DNA from: Candidatus Zixiibacteriota bacterium
GTDB taxonomy: Bacteria > Zixibacteria > MSB-5A5 > GN15 > JACZUZ01
Assembly (NCBI GenBank): GCA_024280775.1
Contig: JAJRPM010000002.1
Coordinates: forward strand, 124,001 to 188,000
Direction: 5' to 3'
DNA length: 64,000 bases
Below are positions 12,294 through 30,961 of the stretch, piece by piece (positions within the stretch are counted from its first letter, which is position 1; every line of letters starts with the position of its first letter). Both the position numbers and the translations under genes were made by a program. The notes below the pieces were generated by a model that was not told the origin of the DNA, made no database searches, and saw nothing but the letters and a program-made list of their open reading frames with translations.

Positions 12294-12414
12294 GTATATG
12301 AGTCTCACATTTGTGAAATGTTCCTGCGTAGATTTTGGTTTTCGAGTGTAGTTCTATATATTGGTATAGCCTTTTGTGAAAAGGAACATTTTCAATAACG
12401 AATATTCGCATCTG

Positions 12415-13095
12415 ATGCAGAAGGAGTTTTTGAGATTGAGATTGACATATTTCTGTAGGCTGGTGGTTGTGAGCGCGGTTTTATTTGGTTCGTGTTACTG
12501 CGGTGAGGATGCGCTAGCTCAAAGTGAGTTGTTGAATAATGACCGATCTGCGGCCGGGTTCAGTGGGGGGATGTTAGTCGGGTTAGAGAACACTGTGACT
12601 ATTACTACATTTACGTTTAGCCTGGCTATACGCGGTCGTTTGGATTTTGGTTTTCAAATCGCTCGCGTTGAAGGAGTGTCGCAGAGGGCTTTAGGAGGGG
12701 CATTTCATTTACTGAAACCATCGGAATACTCCCCATTTGGATTTGCCGCTACCGCATCGGTTGGGAATCACAGGGACAGCAAATTCTATGGAGCTGCATT
12801 GTACATGCGTTTTGAAGGACGAAAGGGCGCTCAGTTTGTTCCAAGTTTGACTTATGGTACGACAAGCTTCGGCGGTAGGTTCCGGTCGGGACGTCACACT
12901 ACCATTATTGCGGGTTTTACTCTGACATCTAGGCTGGCGAATGGCGCTCGCGCCGTAGTTACTCCTCAATATCAGTGGCAAGAAGGCCGGGGTTCAATCG
13001 TTGGGATTCAATTTGGCTTTTTGTTTGTTGATCCGGATTATGTGAAAAATAATGATAAGACAGATATGAATGACTGGGAAGAGTCAGACCTATGA
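12415..13095 (+). CDS. Outer-membrane barrel-like protein, tandem family member 1
   Basis: From ATG 12415 it has 226 residues: a signal peptide with core 'LVVVSAVLFGSCYC' and cleavage near 'ALAQ', then mature 'SELLNNDRSAAGFSGGM'. The body is Gly- and aromatic-rich with alternating hydrophobic strands and 'TPQYQWQEGRGSIVGIQFGFLF' split over two strands near the end. The next three genes share the layout: signal peptide ending in Ala-Gln, then S/N-E-L/F-L/F, and a final 'xxPQYxxxxxxxxxVGxxxGxL'. GTG 12376 is an alternative start, but ATG 12415 gives a better signal peptide. Function unknown. Confidence 0.72.
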   Translation: MQKEFLRLRLTYFCRLVVVSAVLFGSCYCGEDALAQSELLNNDRSAAGFSGGMLVGLENTVTITTFTFSLAIRGRLDFGFQIARVEGVSQRALGGAFHLLKPSEYSPFGFAATASVGNHRDSKFYGAALYMRFEGRKGAQFVPSLTYGTTSFGGRFRSGRHTTIIAGFTLTSRLANGARAVVTPQYQWQEGRGSIVGIQFGFLFVDPDYVKNNDKTDMNDWEESDL

Positions 13096-13748
13096 AGTCG
13101 GGTATGATATTCAAGTGCGCTTTTCTGGTATTCTTGTTAGTTGCTTTCGGTGGAAGTGACATCTTTGCTCAGAATGAATTGCTGAAGAGTAGCCAGAATG
13201 GGATTTATGTTTCAGGTGGATTTGACCGTCTCAATGACAATGAGTTAACCTTGTTCACTGAGACGATAAGTCTGCTGGTTCGGGGGCGAGTTGAATTTGG
13301 CGCAAAGTACACGCAAGTGTATCAAGGGGCTCATTTCAATGAGACTTTTGGCTCTTTGCAGATTATCAAGCCCTCCTCAGGGTTTCCATTTGGCGCGGGA
13401 GCGTCAATGAGCTTAGTTAAGGGTGGGCGCGTCGGTTATTTTGGAGGATCGATAAACTGGCGAACTGAGGCTCCAGGTAGAGATCAATTTGTCGCCAAGA
13501 TAACGGTAGGCGCCACTCGTACGAGGTTCGGAGTTCCAAAGGAGGGAGCCCGCCTTGCAGAGAGCGCAAAGCGCAATGATGTGGATAATGCTCTGACTCT
13601 CGGTGTCAGCCTGATTGCCTCAAACAGATTGACCAATGGTTTACAGTTGACAATCAGTCCCCAATACACATGGCAAAGGCACATTGGCTCAGTTGTGGGG
13701 TTGCAGATTGGGATACTTCGTTTGGATCCTGATCCGGTTATTAACTAG
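13092..13748 (+). CDS. Outer-membrane barrel-like protein, tandem family member 2
   Basis: 218 residues from ATG 13092, overlapping the previous stop by four bases (ATGA). The signal peptide 'CAFLVFLLVAFGGSDIFAQ' precedes mature 'NELLKSSQNGIYVSGG'. Gly-rich beta strands follow and the chain ends with 'ISPQYTWQRHIGSVVGLQIG', strongly like members 1, 3 and 4. The coupling by overlap suggests co-expression. No named family is recognised; a small beta-barrel is the best structural guess. Confidence 0.72.
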   Translation: MKSGMIFKCAFLVFLLVAFGGSDIFAQNELLKSSQNGIYVSGGFDRLNDNELTLFTETISLLVRGRVEFGAKYTQVYQGAHFNETFGSLQIIKPSSGFPFGAGASMSLVKGGRVGYFGGSINWRTEAPGRDQFVAKITVGATRTRFGVPKEGARLAESAKRNDVDNALTLGVSLIASNRLTNGLQLTISPQYTWQRHIGSVVGLQIGILRLDPDPVIN

Positions 13749-13773
13749 GTTTGAAGAAAGGAAGACGCAGGGT

Positions 13774-14442
13774 ATGGGAAGTAGAATCTGGTCAAGAGTA
13801 GTGTTTTTCTTTTTATTGTTTGGAGCAGTAGACAGCAAAACTCTTTTTGCGCAGAGTGAGTTCTTAACTGACAGACAAAGTGGCGTTACTGTTTCCTTTG
13901 CCCATGCGGAGTCCATAAAAAGTTTTCTGCCGGGGCGGGTGAGATCTTTTGGTGTGACCGGTACGATAGAGGATGTTGTAGACGTGGGTTTCTCTTACTC
14001 GACTTTTGAGAGAACCTCACCTGCAAAGACTTTGAGTCTGGCAGTACACTTCAATTCGAATGCTGCGAGGGATCTCCCAAGGTTTGCAGTTGTGGTCCAA
14101 ACTAACCCTGCGCTTGATAACTCTTTCTTGGGCGTCGAACTATACGTGCGTAGTAGCGTTGGGCGCAAAGTTGCGCTAGTTCCAGCGATTACGGTAGGAG
14201 TCTCTACCGTAACATCTGAATTCTCTGGTTTTCGGACAGAATCTACTTCACAGATAGGCGGTAGTATTGGTCTTGGATTCGGATTCTCTTTTGCTAGTGG
14301 TTTGTATCTTACAGTTGCTCCTGTGTATAGTTTCTTGGGAACAAGTACAGACTTTATCGGGGTTTCAACTGGATTAATTTTTCACGGCAAAAAGAAAGTG
14401 CGGCGTAACGCTAATTGGGATGAGTTATCCTATGCGGATTGA
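13774..14442 (+). CDS. Outer-membrane barrel-like protein, tandem family member 3
   Basis: 222 residues from ATG 13774, 25 bp after the stop of member 2 and preceded by GAAAGGA. The signal peptide 'VVFFFLLFGAVDSKTLFAQ' leads to mature 'SEFLTDRQSGVTVSFAH'. The end 'VAPVYSFLGTSTDFIGVSTG' matches the family's closing strands. An upstream ATG at 13684 overlaps member 2 by 65 bases and would put ~30 residues in front of the signal peptide, so I rejected it. Function unknown. Confidence 0.7.
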   Translation: MGSRIWSRVVFFFLLFGAVDSKTLFAQSEFLTDRQSGVTVSFAHAESIKSFLPGRVRSFGVTGTIEDVVDVGFSYSTFERTSPAKTLSLAVHFNSNAARDLPRFAVVVQTNPALDNSFLGVELYVRSSVGRKVALVPAITVGVSTVTSEFSGFRTESTSQIGGSIGLGFGFSFASGLYLTVAPVYSFLGTSTDFIGVSTGLIFHGKKKVRRNANWDELSYAD

Positions 14443-14468
14443 TTCAACGGAAGTTTGTCAAAGAAGGG

Positions 14469-15101
14469 ATGAGTGGTTTGAGTTTCTCTAGATGTGTGAT
14501 TTCGTTTCTAGTTGCTGTGGCCTTCAGTTTTGCAGGAGAGCCTGCCTCGGCTCAAAGTGAGTTTTTTGAGAAAGGGCAGTATGGAGGAGGTGTGAGCGTT
14601 GGTGTGTTTGCACCCGCCTCGAAGAGTTCAACCAACTCAACAGTGACCACATACTCTGTTACTGCTGATGATAGAATCGATCTAGGATTCACTGTCTCTT
14701 ATTCGGAAGATCAAGACCAATCACAAACGGTATTCAACGTTACTTTACAGCTCTCTCCCAACACCAAAGGCGGCGCTCTCCAGCCAGCCGTAGTTGTGGC
14801 CAGTGGATTGGCGAATGATGGGTATTTTGTAGGTTTCGGGCTATCTTCGCGGGTTCAAAGTGATAGGAGTTTTGTGCTGGTTCCTTCTGGGGTGGTTGGA
14901 GTTGTCCGAAGCAAACAAGGTCGATATGGTTCGAGGGAATCGACGGTTGCGGGAACGCTAGCGGTTGGGGCGGGGTTCAAAGTAGGGAAGTACGGTTACT
15001 TTACTGTCACGCCACAGTACATATTCACATCTAGTGATACAGATTTAAGCGAGGTTGGAATTTCTCTTGGATTCCTTTTGCATGGGAAGAGCACTAGATA
15101 G
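14469..15101 (+). CDS. Outer-membrane barrel-like protein, tandem family member 4
   Basis: 210 residues from ATG 14469; TTG 14439 is possible but poorer. The signal peptide 'CVISFLVAVAFSFAGEPASAQ' precedes mature 'SEFFEKGQYGGGVSVG', and the end 'VTPQYIFTSSDTDLSEVGIS' again matches the family. This is the last of four tandem paralogues (12415-15101). The array looks like repeated local duplication followed by strong divergence, as in surface proteins under diversifying selection; that reason is inferred. Confidence 0.7.
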   Translation: MSGLSFSRCVISFLVAVAFSFAGEPASAQSEFFEKGQYGGGVSVGVFAPASKSSTNSTVTTYSVTADDRIDLGFTVSYSEDQDQSQTVFNVTLQLSPNTKGGALQPAVVVASGLANDGYFVGFGLSSRVQSDRSFVLVPSGVVGVVRSKQGRYGSRESTVAGTLAVGAGFKVGKYGYFTVTPQYIFTSSDTDLSEVGISLGFLLHGKSTR

Positions 15102-15201: not shown

Positions 15202-16590
15202 GTGAACGTAGAATTAGTCATAGGTGTATCCTTCAGTTTGGCAGTCGGCGGAGCTATTGGCTGGCTGTTGGCTTCACGCAAGGCCGCTTCAGCTAGCGCA
15301 CGGGCGGAGCAGGTTATCTCAGAACGTGATGAGGCGCGCAAGGATTTTGATACTTTGCGCGAGAAGTTGAGTGTGGCCGAGCAGGAGAAGGCGGCGGCTT
15401 TGGCGCGGAATGTTGAGATTGAAAAGTATGTAGCCGAGCAAAAGAAGACACTTGATGAAGCGCAGGTGCGTCTTACTGACACTTTCAAATCGCTGGCGGC
15501 GGATGCTCTTAAGGATTCTAACAAGAGTTTTCTTGATTTGGCAAATGAAAAGTTTGCCAAGCTCAAGTCTGAATCAGAGTCGGATTTGAAGGCGCGCGAG
15601 AAGGCTGTTGAGAATCTGGTTAATCCACTTTCGAAGGCGCTTGAGGAGTATCAGAAGGAATCCCAGGCGATCGCGGAGAAGCACTCTAAGGAAATGGGTA
15701 AATTCGACGAGCAATCACAGACACTTGCTCAAAGTATTCTGAATCTACAAAGTGAAACCGGCAATCTTGTCAGCGCGCTAAAACGTCCGCAAGTACGCGG
15801 TCGCTGGGGAGAAATCGCTCTCAGGCGCACCGCTGAGTTGGCGGGAATGATAGATCATTGTGATTTCTATGAACAAGTCAGTGTCAATGTCGAAGAAGGT
15901 CGCTTGCGTCCGGATATGATTGTGAGACTTCCCTCCAGCCGGGAGGTTATAGTGGATTCAAAAGTTTCATTGATTGGCTTTTTTGAGGCTCTGGAAGCCA
16001 CCGATGACGAAGCCAGAACGGCGGCGCTGAAACGTCATGCCAGCCAACTGACACGGCATGTCGACCAATTAGCTTCGAAAGACTATGCGAGGAATTTTGA
16101 TAAAGCGATTGATATGGTTGTCATGTTTGTTCCCAATGATTCTTTTCTGACGGCGGCAACTGAGATTCGACCGGAATTGTTGGAGTATTCTGCGTCGAAG
16201 GGTGTGTTGATAACCACTCCTTCATCGTTTATAGCCTTGCTCAAGGCATTTGCAGTGGGTTGGCGCGAGGCTCAATTGACGGAGAATGCGCGTGAGATTT
16301 CAATCCTTGGTCAAGAATTGTATGACAGGATGTCTACTTTGGCAGAACATTTCGACAGAGTTGGGAGTTCTTTAGAAAAGAGTGTAGAATCGTTCAATGC
16401 TGCGGTGTCGTCGATTGATGCGCGAGTGTTTTCCTCGGCGAGAAAATTCAAGGAACTTGGCATAGGCGGCAAGAAGAGCATAATTGAAATAGAGCAAGTG
16501 GATAAGCGGCCGCGTAAGGTGACACAGAAGATCCCTCGTGAAGAGACTGTCGAAGCGATTAAGGCAGTGAACATTGAAGATCATAAATAA
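15202..16590 (+). CDS. rmuC: DNA recombination protein RmuC
   Basis: 462 residues from GTG 15202, with AGAAGAG upstream. The N-terminus has one membrane segment ('VIGVSFSLAVGGAIGWLLA'), then a coiled coil to about residue 190 rich in Glu/Lys/Ala, then the RmuC nuclease-like domain with 'RGRWGEIALRRTAELAGM', 'RPDMIVRLPSSREVIVDSKV' (Asp...Asp-x-Lys, PD-(D/E)xK-like) and 'MFVPNDSFLTAA'. In E. coli RmuC limits recombination at inverted repeats. The length and domain order fit the family. Confidence 0.93.
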   Translation: MNVELVIGVSFSLAVGGAIGWLLASRKAASASARAEQVISERDEARKDFDTLREKLSVAEQEKAAALARNVEIEKYVAEQKKTLDEAQVRLTDTFKSLAADALKDSNKSFLDLANEKFAKLKSESESDLKAREKAVENLVNPLSKALEEYQKESQAIAEKHSKEMGKFDEQSQTLAQSILNLQSETGNLVSALKRPQVRGRWGEIALRRTAELAGMIDHCDFYEQVSVNVEEGRLRPDMIVRLPSSREVIVDSKVSLIGFFEALEATDDEARTAALKRHASQLTRHVDQLASKDYARNFDKAIDMVVMFVPNDSFLTAATEIRPELLEYSASKGVLITTPSSFIALLKAFAVGWREAQLTENAREISILGQELYDRMSTLAEHFDRVGSSLEKSVESFNAAVSSIDARVFSSARKFKELGIGGKKSIIEIEQVDKRPRKVTQKIPREETVEAIKAVNIEDHK

Positions 16591-16609: not shown

Positions 16610-17146
16610 ATGGCTTTCATTAAGTATATCAATTACGATGACGCAGACGAGCAGCAGAAGAAGGTTCTCGAAAAGTATGGCGGGGCAAATCGTCAGCCTG
16701 ATAATATCATTCGGGTGTCGAGTGTTAATCCTGCGGCGATGGATGGGCATGTTGCGCTCTACAAGAGTGTTCACAGGGGTAAGTCGCCGGTTTCGCGTTT
16801 GCAACGTGAGATGATTGCTGTGACGGTTTCGGGCATCAATGCCTGTCACTACTGAGTGACACATCATAGTCGGGGCTTTATTGCTCTGGGAGGGTCGGAG
16901 ACTCTCATCGCACAAATTGCAGAAGATTACACCTCAGCCGAAATTAGTGACGCAGAAATGGCGATGTTGGGTTTTGTGGCCAAGTTGACTCATGAACCTT
17001 GGGAGATGACTGCCGAGGATACCGAGATATTACGGGAGCATGATTTTGACGACCTTGCGATTCACGATATTACACAGGTGGCAGCGTATTTCAACTATGT
17101 GAATCGTATTGCCGACGGTTTGGGAGTTGAGTTAGAAGAGAAGTGA
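16610..17146 (+). CDS. AhpD-like peroxidase-related selenoprotein (CxxU), UGA at 16853-16855
   Basis: The frame from ATG 16610 reads 81 codons, meets TGA at 16853-16855 and continues in the same frame for 96 more codons to the true stop at 17144-17146. The total is 178 residues, normal for the carboxymuconolactone-decarboxylase/AhpD 'peroxidase-related' family. The TGA falls exactly at the second Cys of the family's CxxC motif: 'GINACHY-U-VTHH'. The other AhpD relay residues are in place: Glu67 (15 before) and His86 (4 after). Selenocysteine is therefore the best reading. A hairpin with a GGUC-starting loop lies downstream (16887-16907). It likely reduces peroxides or disulfides with a thiol partner, and is followed 46 bp later by an FMN reductase. 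SelA, SelB, SelD and tRNA-Sec must be encoded elsewhere. Confidence 0.88.
16887..16907 (+). promoter_or_regulatory. Candidate bacterial SECIS hairpin
   Basis: UGGGAG and CUCUCA pair (six pairs, one G-U) around the nine-base loop GGUCGGAGA. The loop begins with GGUC, as in the E. coli fdhF SECIS, and starts 37 bases after the UGA, at the far edge of the published 16-37 base window. An alternative 4-bp hairpin (CUCU/GGAG, stem starting at 16884) would place a G-starting loop 32 bases away. Which fold is used cannot be settled by eye. Confidence 0.5.
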
Positions 17147-17192: not shown

Positions 17193-17774
17193 ATGAGTGT
17201 TACACCAAAAATTTTGGCCTTTGCCGGAAGCGCTCGCAAGGGCTCTTTCAATAAGACATTGGTAAAGGTTGCCGCTGAGGGCGCCAGGAGCGCCGGGGCG
17301 GAAGTTACTTTTATTGATTTTTGTGATTATGTATTGCCGCTTTACGATCAGGATTGTGAGACAGAGCAGGGAACGCCCAAGCAATCTCTCGAACTAAAGA
17401 GCTTGTTCAAAGCGCATGACGGTTTTTTGATTTCATCGCCGGAGCACAATAGCGCTATCTCAGCTCTGCTGAAAAATGTAATTGACTGGGTGTCACGTCC
17501 GGCAGAAGGCGAGGAGAGTCTTGAATGTTTCAAGGGGAAAGTTGCGATATTGATGGCGGCTTCTCCGGGCGGACTGGGAGGGTTGCGCGGTTTGAACTCT
17601 GTGCATTCGATTCTCTCAAGTTTGGGGACAATTGTTTTGCCGGATCAGATGGCGATTTCGGCGGCTCATTCGGCGTTTGATGAAACCGGAGCGTTGAAGG
17701 ACAGCAAGAAGCAGGAGCGAATAGAGGCGCTGGGAGCTACTCTAGCTATTACTATCGCGAAACTGAAAGCCTAG
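17193..17774 (+). CDS. NAD(P)H-dependent FMN reductase family protein
   Basis: 193 residues of the flavodoxin-like NADPH-dependent FMN reductase family. The N-terminal 'ILAFAGSARKGSFNKTL' is the phosphate-binding loop for FMN, and 'SSPEHNSAISALLKNVIDWVSR' is the second signature, followed by the 'ASPGGLGGLRGL' loop. It reduces FMN or quinones with NAD(P)H in the cytosol. It starts 46 bp after the selenoprotein gene and may be co-transcribed, so a role in redox defence is plausible but inferred. Confidence 0.92.
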   Translation: MSVTPKILAFAGSARKGSFNKTLVKVAAEGARSAGAEVTFIDFCDYVLPLYDQDCETEQGTPKQSLELKSLFKAHDGFLISSPEHNSAISALLKNVIDWVSRPAEGEESLECFKGKVAILMAASPGGLGGLRGLNSVHSILSSLGTIVLPDQMAISAAHSAFDETGALKDSKKQERIEALGATLAITIAKLKA

Positions 17775-30560: not shown

Positions 30561-30664
30561 GCTCGATTCAACTCCAGAGCAAATCATATCGCCGAAATCT
30601 TGACCTTGGCGAGGTTACGGGCTTATACTGCCTGCGACAATGTCCCGGCGCTGAATCGTGATAA

Positions 30665-30845
30665 ATTGTAATCAAGGTATGCGATCAGCTAAGAGGGAAG
30701 TTCGGTGAGAATCCGACGCAGCCCCGCTACTGTATGCGGCTACTGAAGAAAGCAATTTTGCCACTGGAGATCTTACGCTCTGGGAAGGCGCTTTCGATAG
30801 AGGCCTGACGCCGCAAAGCCAGGAAACCTGCCGTGATGCAACTTT
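30665..30845 (+). ncRNA. Cobalamin riboswitch
   Basis: The leader contains the conserved pieces in order: 'GGGAAGTTCGGTGAGAATCC', then 'GCAGCCCCGCTACTGTA', the 'GCCACTGG' core, and the B12 box 'AAAGCCAGGAAACCTGCC' at 30814-30831. This is the adenosylcobalamin-class pattern. It precedes a BtuB-like receptor by ~120 bp and should repress it when cobalamin is plentiful, probably through the GC-rich hairpin region around 30858-30875 and the ribosome-binding site AAGGAG before 30962. Confidence 0.95.
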
Positions 30846-30961
30846 CAGTCAGGAAACTCCGCGCGGGCGGTTGTGTGGCTTATGCGAATAATCTCATACT
30901 CGCATCAATTGTGTAACTCCGGCAAAGTTTTCTGATTCCTATCAGAAAGGAGTGATTTCAG

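Follow-up and report, generated by a model that had tools for sequence, protein, structure and literature searches.

A predicted selenocysteine-containing AhpD-like gene in a Candidatus Zixiibacteriota genome and the RNA structures downstream of its UGA codon

A 64,000-nucleotide stretch of a Candidatus Zixiibacteriota genome (assembly GCA_024280775.1, contig JAJRPM010000002.1, positions 124,001 to 188,000; referred to here as the window) carries a gene that almost certainly encodes a selenocysteine (Sec)-containing protein of TIGR01926, the AhpD-like "peroxidase-related" family within the CMD/AhpD superfamily. From its ATG to its terminal TGA, the frame is interrupted only by a TGA at codon 82 (Table 1). 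When this codon was translated as Sec (U), a single protein with homology on both sides of the TGA was obtained. Neither half alone matched Pfam, while the read-through protein matched CMD (PF02627; 1.1e-9) and scored 130.2 bits against TIGR01926, well above the curated cutoff of 81.8. The original prediction, made from the DNA letters, had placed the TGA at the second Cys of the CxxC motif within an AhpD-like proton relay. Indeed, the motif reads C79-H-Y-U82, Glu67 and His86 keep the spacing of the AhpD relay, and Tyr81 occupies the site of His132.

Conservation of the UGA codon and the Sec machinery

The in-frame TGA is conserved among homologs. It recurs at the position of the redox Cys in G001, a genome of the same genus (85% identity), and in L031 (71% identity); the closest named relative, a Candidatus Zixiibacteriota metagenome-assembled genome (L030), is 85% identical over the protein. 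The best matches in 31 related genomes and 132 genomes of the phylum also carry an in-frame TGA, and of the two TGAs reported for the match in G008, only one lies within the redox motif. Across all homologs fetched, approximately 50 C..U, 20 C..C, and 9 C..S motifs were found at position 82, with a few loci counted twice. In an alignment of 28 members, Glu67, Cys79, and His86 were invariant and Tyr81 nearly so.

In a 72-member tree, 45 Sec forms were located on one side of a single branch (support of 99/80; 98% of bootstraps), and the Ser forms likewise lay on one side of a single branch. The redox column was kept in the alignment with Sec and Cys both coded as C, and the difference between the two residues therefore cannot have driven the topology. 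The Sec forms may have a single origin, which is compatible with the midpoint-rooted tree, and their clade spans genomes of Planctomycetota, Acidobacteriota, and Chloroflexota as well as the Zixiibacteriota host. No relatives of the gene were found in viral contigs. Nine homologs from Pseudomonadota (L054, L055, L057, L059, L061, L062, L063, L069, and L075) have Ser at position 82 (CxYS), keep Glu67 and His86, and form one well-supported clade; the CxYS forms suggest that the redox chemistry was lost or changed. Three divergent homologs (L027, L024, and L029) also have an in-frame TGA at this site; the motif there is altered to GAPU or CVHU, or is CHYU in a remote match.

The host genome (3.17 Mb, 97.5% complete) encodes the full Sec machinery, comprising a tRNA-Sec with anticodon UCA (64.5 bits), adjoining selA (478 bits) and selB (286 bits) genes on contig C4, and a selD gene (388 bits) on contig C15 with an in-frame TGA of its own at the AGUASK motif. 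Absence of selB, selC, or selD had been named beforehand as grounds for abandoning the Sec assignment, which withstood this search. SelB and tRNA-Sec(UCA) would decode the UGA at codon 82 as Sec, presumably directed by an RNA structure just downstream. No formate dehydrogenase selenoprotein (Fdh-alpha) scored above the cutoff in the host genome, and no tRNAs were found within the window. An unfiltered scan of the window returned 95 places at which a TGA is flanked by open frame on both sides, mostly overlapping or reverse-frame noise. The TGA of codon 82 is the only one of these known to have protein-level support and, as judged by motif and without individual homology searches of the candidates, no further selenoprotein gene in the window was convincing.

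Three other explanations of the in-frame TGA are effectively excluded. As the gene itself ends in TGA, this codon also serves as a stop in this organism, and codon 82 could be a true stop in a pseudogene or split gene with a decaying frame. However, the TGA is retained in homologs at 85%, 71%, and approximately 50% identity, the frame is otherwise intact, the residues downstream are conserved, and the Sec machinery is complete, all of which make decay highly improbable. A TGC or TGT codon misread through sequencing or assembly error is conceivable in a window taken from a single draft assembly of 17 contigs, but such an error would have had to strike codon 82 again in each of several independent assemblies (L018/L030, L031, and others) and deserves very little credence. 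Organism-wide reading of TGA as Trp or Gly, for which nothing was found in favor, has a negligible probability, as window genes including this one end in TGA, tRNA-Sec(UCA) and SelA/SelB/SelD are present, and homologs align Cys or Ser at position 82, never Trp or Gly.

Several points nevertheless weigh against the Sec assignment. The support comes from sequence and from a predicted fold, and actual Sec insertion at codon 82 is what we infer from frame, motif, conservation, and machinery. The published model of the bacterial Sec insertion sequence (bSECIS) has a loop of 3 to 9 nucleotides (nt) with a G in the first two positions, 16 to 37 nt from the UGA, and a minimum free energy of <= -7.5 kcal/mol (PMC13188914); in this gene the best G-loop hairpin at 16 to 37 nt, taken in isolation, reached only -5.8 kcal/mol, and no canonical SECIS was found. 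Moreover, proteins of TIGR01926 are weakly characterized in catalytic function, and no reductant was identified, as the genome contains no AhpC-equivalog match above the cutoff but only a related peroxiredoxin (172 bits).

Table 1. Window coordinates of the AhpD-like gene, its elements, and the adjacent genes
Feature	Position	Strand	Remarks
AhpD-like (peroxidase-related, TIGR01926) selenoprotein gene	16610..17146	+	178 aa; Sec at codon 82 (predicted); stop TGA 17144-17146
Redox motif C79-H-Y-U82	16844..16855	+	TGT CAC TAC TGA; TGA conserved in homologs
Sec82 codon, UGA predicted to be read as Sec	16853..16855	+	Conserved TGA and genomic Sec machinery
HP1, 7-bp hairpin	16870..16889	+	UUUAUU loop (no G); at site of canonical SECIS in sister-clade genes
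HP2, 7-bp hairpin	16890..16906	+	GGA apical loop (16897-16899), 41 nt after UGA; abuts HP1; proposed SelB-binding loop
NADPH-dependent flavin mononucleotide (FMN) reductase gene	17193..17774	+	Next gene downstream; Pfam FMN_red 7.2e-41
rmuC-like gene	15202..16590	+	19 nt upstream; NCBIfam RmuC 5.2e-47, below equivalog cutoff

RNA structure downstream of the UGA

In relatives of the gene, the RNA just past the UGA site folds better in the Sec forms, taken together, than in the Cys and Ser forms. The mean z score was -1.04 for 50 Sec sequences versus 0.01 for 30 Cys/Ser sequences. With the published bSECIS constraints applied to isolated hairpins, a canonical G-loop hairpin of <= -7.5 kcal/mol was present in 27 of 52 C..U forms and in none of the Cys/Ser forms, in a raw comparison uncorrected for base composition and phylogeny. 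In 19 genes of the sister clade, a 7-bp stem carries a GUU loop at a distance of precisely 20 nt from the UGA, with both-side changes at three pairs. The stem is paired in 99.2% of cells of this alignment, and none of 500 shuffles reached its covariation score, although some of these hairpins fall below -7.5 kcal/mol only when flanking pairs are included. The host selD gene likewise has a canonical bSECIS (GGU loop 20 nt after the UGA, -9.8 kcal/mol), and most selD genes of the order share the same 20-nt geometry. A textbook SECIS, as sought on the strength of the original prediction, is found in the sister genes, whereas the ahpD-like gene itself does not strictly conform to the published model.

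Instead, two abutting hairpins, HP1 and HP2, follow the UGA of this gene. The loop of HP1 lies 21 nt after the UGA; the GGA hairpin (HP2) has a folding energy in isolation of -7.3 kcal/mol and, at 41 nt, lies beyond the published 16 to 37 nt. G001 and L031 have both hairpins as well, and in each of these three lineage members the two abut exactly. The statistics that follow come from these three related sequences, for hairpins chosen after inspection, and the P values are modest and uncorrected. In the HP1-HP2 register 97.6% of cells were paired, compared with 40 to 57% when the register was slid. In L031, HP1 shows a single compensatory pair change along with two changes on one side only, and the two hairpins together have one compensatory and four one-sided changes. 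Codons 83 to 100 showed an excess of synonymous conservation (P = 0.009 and 0.018). HP1/HP2 folded more stably than its synonymous randomizations in the host genome (G000), G001, and L031 (P = 0.06, 0.010, and 0.008; tests that are not independent), and once the permitted range was extended past 37 nt, the G-loop hairpin also surpassed its randomizations (P = 0.045, 0.013, and 0.039; likewise three nonindependent tests). In a shuffle control, 160 of 500 shuffles reached the observed value for HP1/HP2, a comparison that has no power.

Two interpretations of this arrangement, both of which retain the selenoprotein, are about as likely as each other. One, a lead from three sequences that we advance tentatively, is a noncanonical SECIS made of tandem hairpins, in which folded HP1 places the GGA loop of HP2 at an effective distance of about 21 nt. 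Subtraction of the 20 nt of folded HP1 from 41 nt indeed gives 21 nt, near the usual 20 nt, and the host selD, with its canonical GGU loop 20 nt from the UGA, suggests that the host SelB expects about that distance. The exact abutment, the pairing register, the compensatory and one-sided changes, the synonymous conservation of codons 83 to 100, and the randomization results for stability and for the extended-range G-loop hairpin all agree with a tandem signal. However, they share the small sample, post hoc selection, and nonindependence noted above, and the shuffle control is uninformative.

The other interpretation, to be held just as cautiously, is that HP1 alone acts as the SECIS, with a degenerate loop tolerated by SelB, and that HP2 is incidental. 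HP1 stands at the SECIS site of the sister clade with its loop at 21 nt, it has undergone a compensatory pair change in L031, and some bacterial SECIS are known to fall outside the model, as noted in a 2026 review (PMC13188914). On the other hand, HP2 is conserved too. If the tandem interpretation is true, the G-less HP1 would be the spacer of a distance-compensating bacterial SECIS variant that standard SECIS scans probably miss. Such a two-hairpin signal would broaden the definition of the bacterial SECIS and provide a test of how SelB gauges distance from the UGA.

Predicted fold, proposed chemistry, and gene neighborhood

An AlphaFold model of the protein, with Cys in place of Sec, had a mean predicted local distance difference test (pLDDT) score of 93.6. 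Solved structures matched it with query TM-scores of approximately 0.82 to 0.91 at 25 to 32% identity (3c1l, 6k40, 2pfx, 2prr, and 2oyo), and the values of approximately 0.9 for 3c1l, 6k40, 2prr, and 2oyo indicate the all-helical AhpD-like fold. In the model, Glu67 lies within helix 63-76 and residue 82 within helix 80-92, which match the two-helix hairpin that carries the AhpD relay residues (PMC3141380).

By analogy with AhpD, Sec82 would occupy the place of Cys133 of the Mycobacterium tuberculosis protein, and Glu67, Tyr81, and His86 could form the proton-relay neighborhood that activates the selenolate. Sec82 would then attack a hydroperoxide or disulfide, Cys79 would resolve it as a Se-S bond, and a reductase would reduce this bond. 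The assignment of Sec82 as the attacker depends on which Cys we take to be the nucleophile in M. tuberculosis AhpD, and the steps with Sec82 attacking and Cys79 resolving are somewhat favored. The overall chemistry would be that of a peroxidase or a disulfide reductase.

The FMN reductase encoded downstream is a possible but unproven electron donor for the ahpD-like protein. This linkage was seen in G000 and G001 only (with one gene inserted in G001) and not beside more distant relatives; as it is confined to the genus, a conserved partnership was rejected. The gene between ahpD and the FMN reductase gene in G001 is of the DinB_2 type (L018:2048-2671); the window has no such gene at the corresponding location. 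The rmuC-like gene is a probable operon neighbor of the ahpD-like gene, and their adjacency is retained in G001. The rmuC-like protein shares just 36% identity with its syntenic counterpart in G001/L030, compared with approximately 92% for the flanking sucD, ndk, and mdh products and 88% for that of gdh. In L031, an open reading frame (ORF) upstream of ahpD (L031:1255-1941) has no Pfam match and opens with ~45 bases closely resembling those with which ahpD begins (MSHIKYI..DKAN), which look like a copy duplicated onto the ORF. Elsewhere in the window, a cobalamin riboswitch (99.3 bits) was detected at 30658-30849, and at 12376-15101 lie four consecutive ORFs that are similar in size and have signal-like starts; three of these were scanned and none had a Pfam match.

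Relation to known AhpD-like proteins

Previous research has described AhpD-like CxxU selenoproteins from the Sargasso Sea (27 sequences, 2005; PMC1088965) and in bacterial genomes (2006; PMC1794560). In the 2008 Global Ocean Sampling survey, "AhpD-like 1, CxxU" ranked fourth in number among 51 selenoprotein families, with 299 sequences (PMC2398784), which contradicts the earlier assumption that such proteins are rare. The 2026 review lists AhpD-like selenoproteins under TIGR01926 (PMC13188914). A paper that pairs "Zixibacteria" with "selenocysteine" mentions a Zixibacteria bin but no AhpD (PMC8318568). The gene described here is therefore a new addition to an already known family.

With the AhpD-like 1 family (COG2128/TIGR01926), the protein shares a score above the family cutoff, CxxU with Sec at the second Cys, and the alternation of Sec and Cys. 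It differs in its location in a Zixiibacteriota-type genome and in the downstream RNA of its lineage, in which neither the loop nor its position is that of a canonical SECIS. Two other CxxU families of the CMD/AhpD superfamily are more distant, as the protein scored 61 bits against a cutoff of 175 for NF041238 (AhpD_rel_CFYUT) and did not match NF041047 (GSU3128). The solved peroxidase-related proteins (3c1l, 2pfx, 6k40, 2oyo, and 2prr) share the full-length fold, with Cys at the Sec position in the three alignments inspected. The spacing of E67/C79/Y81/U82/H86 resembles that of M. tuberculosis AhpD and Pseudomonas aeruginosa PA0269 (PDB 2o4d/2ijc), the latter of which also has Tyr at the His132 site (PMC3141380). 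In contrast to both proteins, Sec replaces the second Cys here and no ahpC gene adjoins. Overall, the finding enlarges the range of carriers of this known selenoprotein family by one Zixiibacteriota genome, and the Sec forms recovered in the analysis represent one clade common to Planctomycetota, Acidobacteriota, and Chloroflexota.
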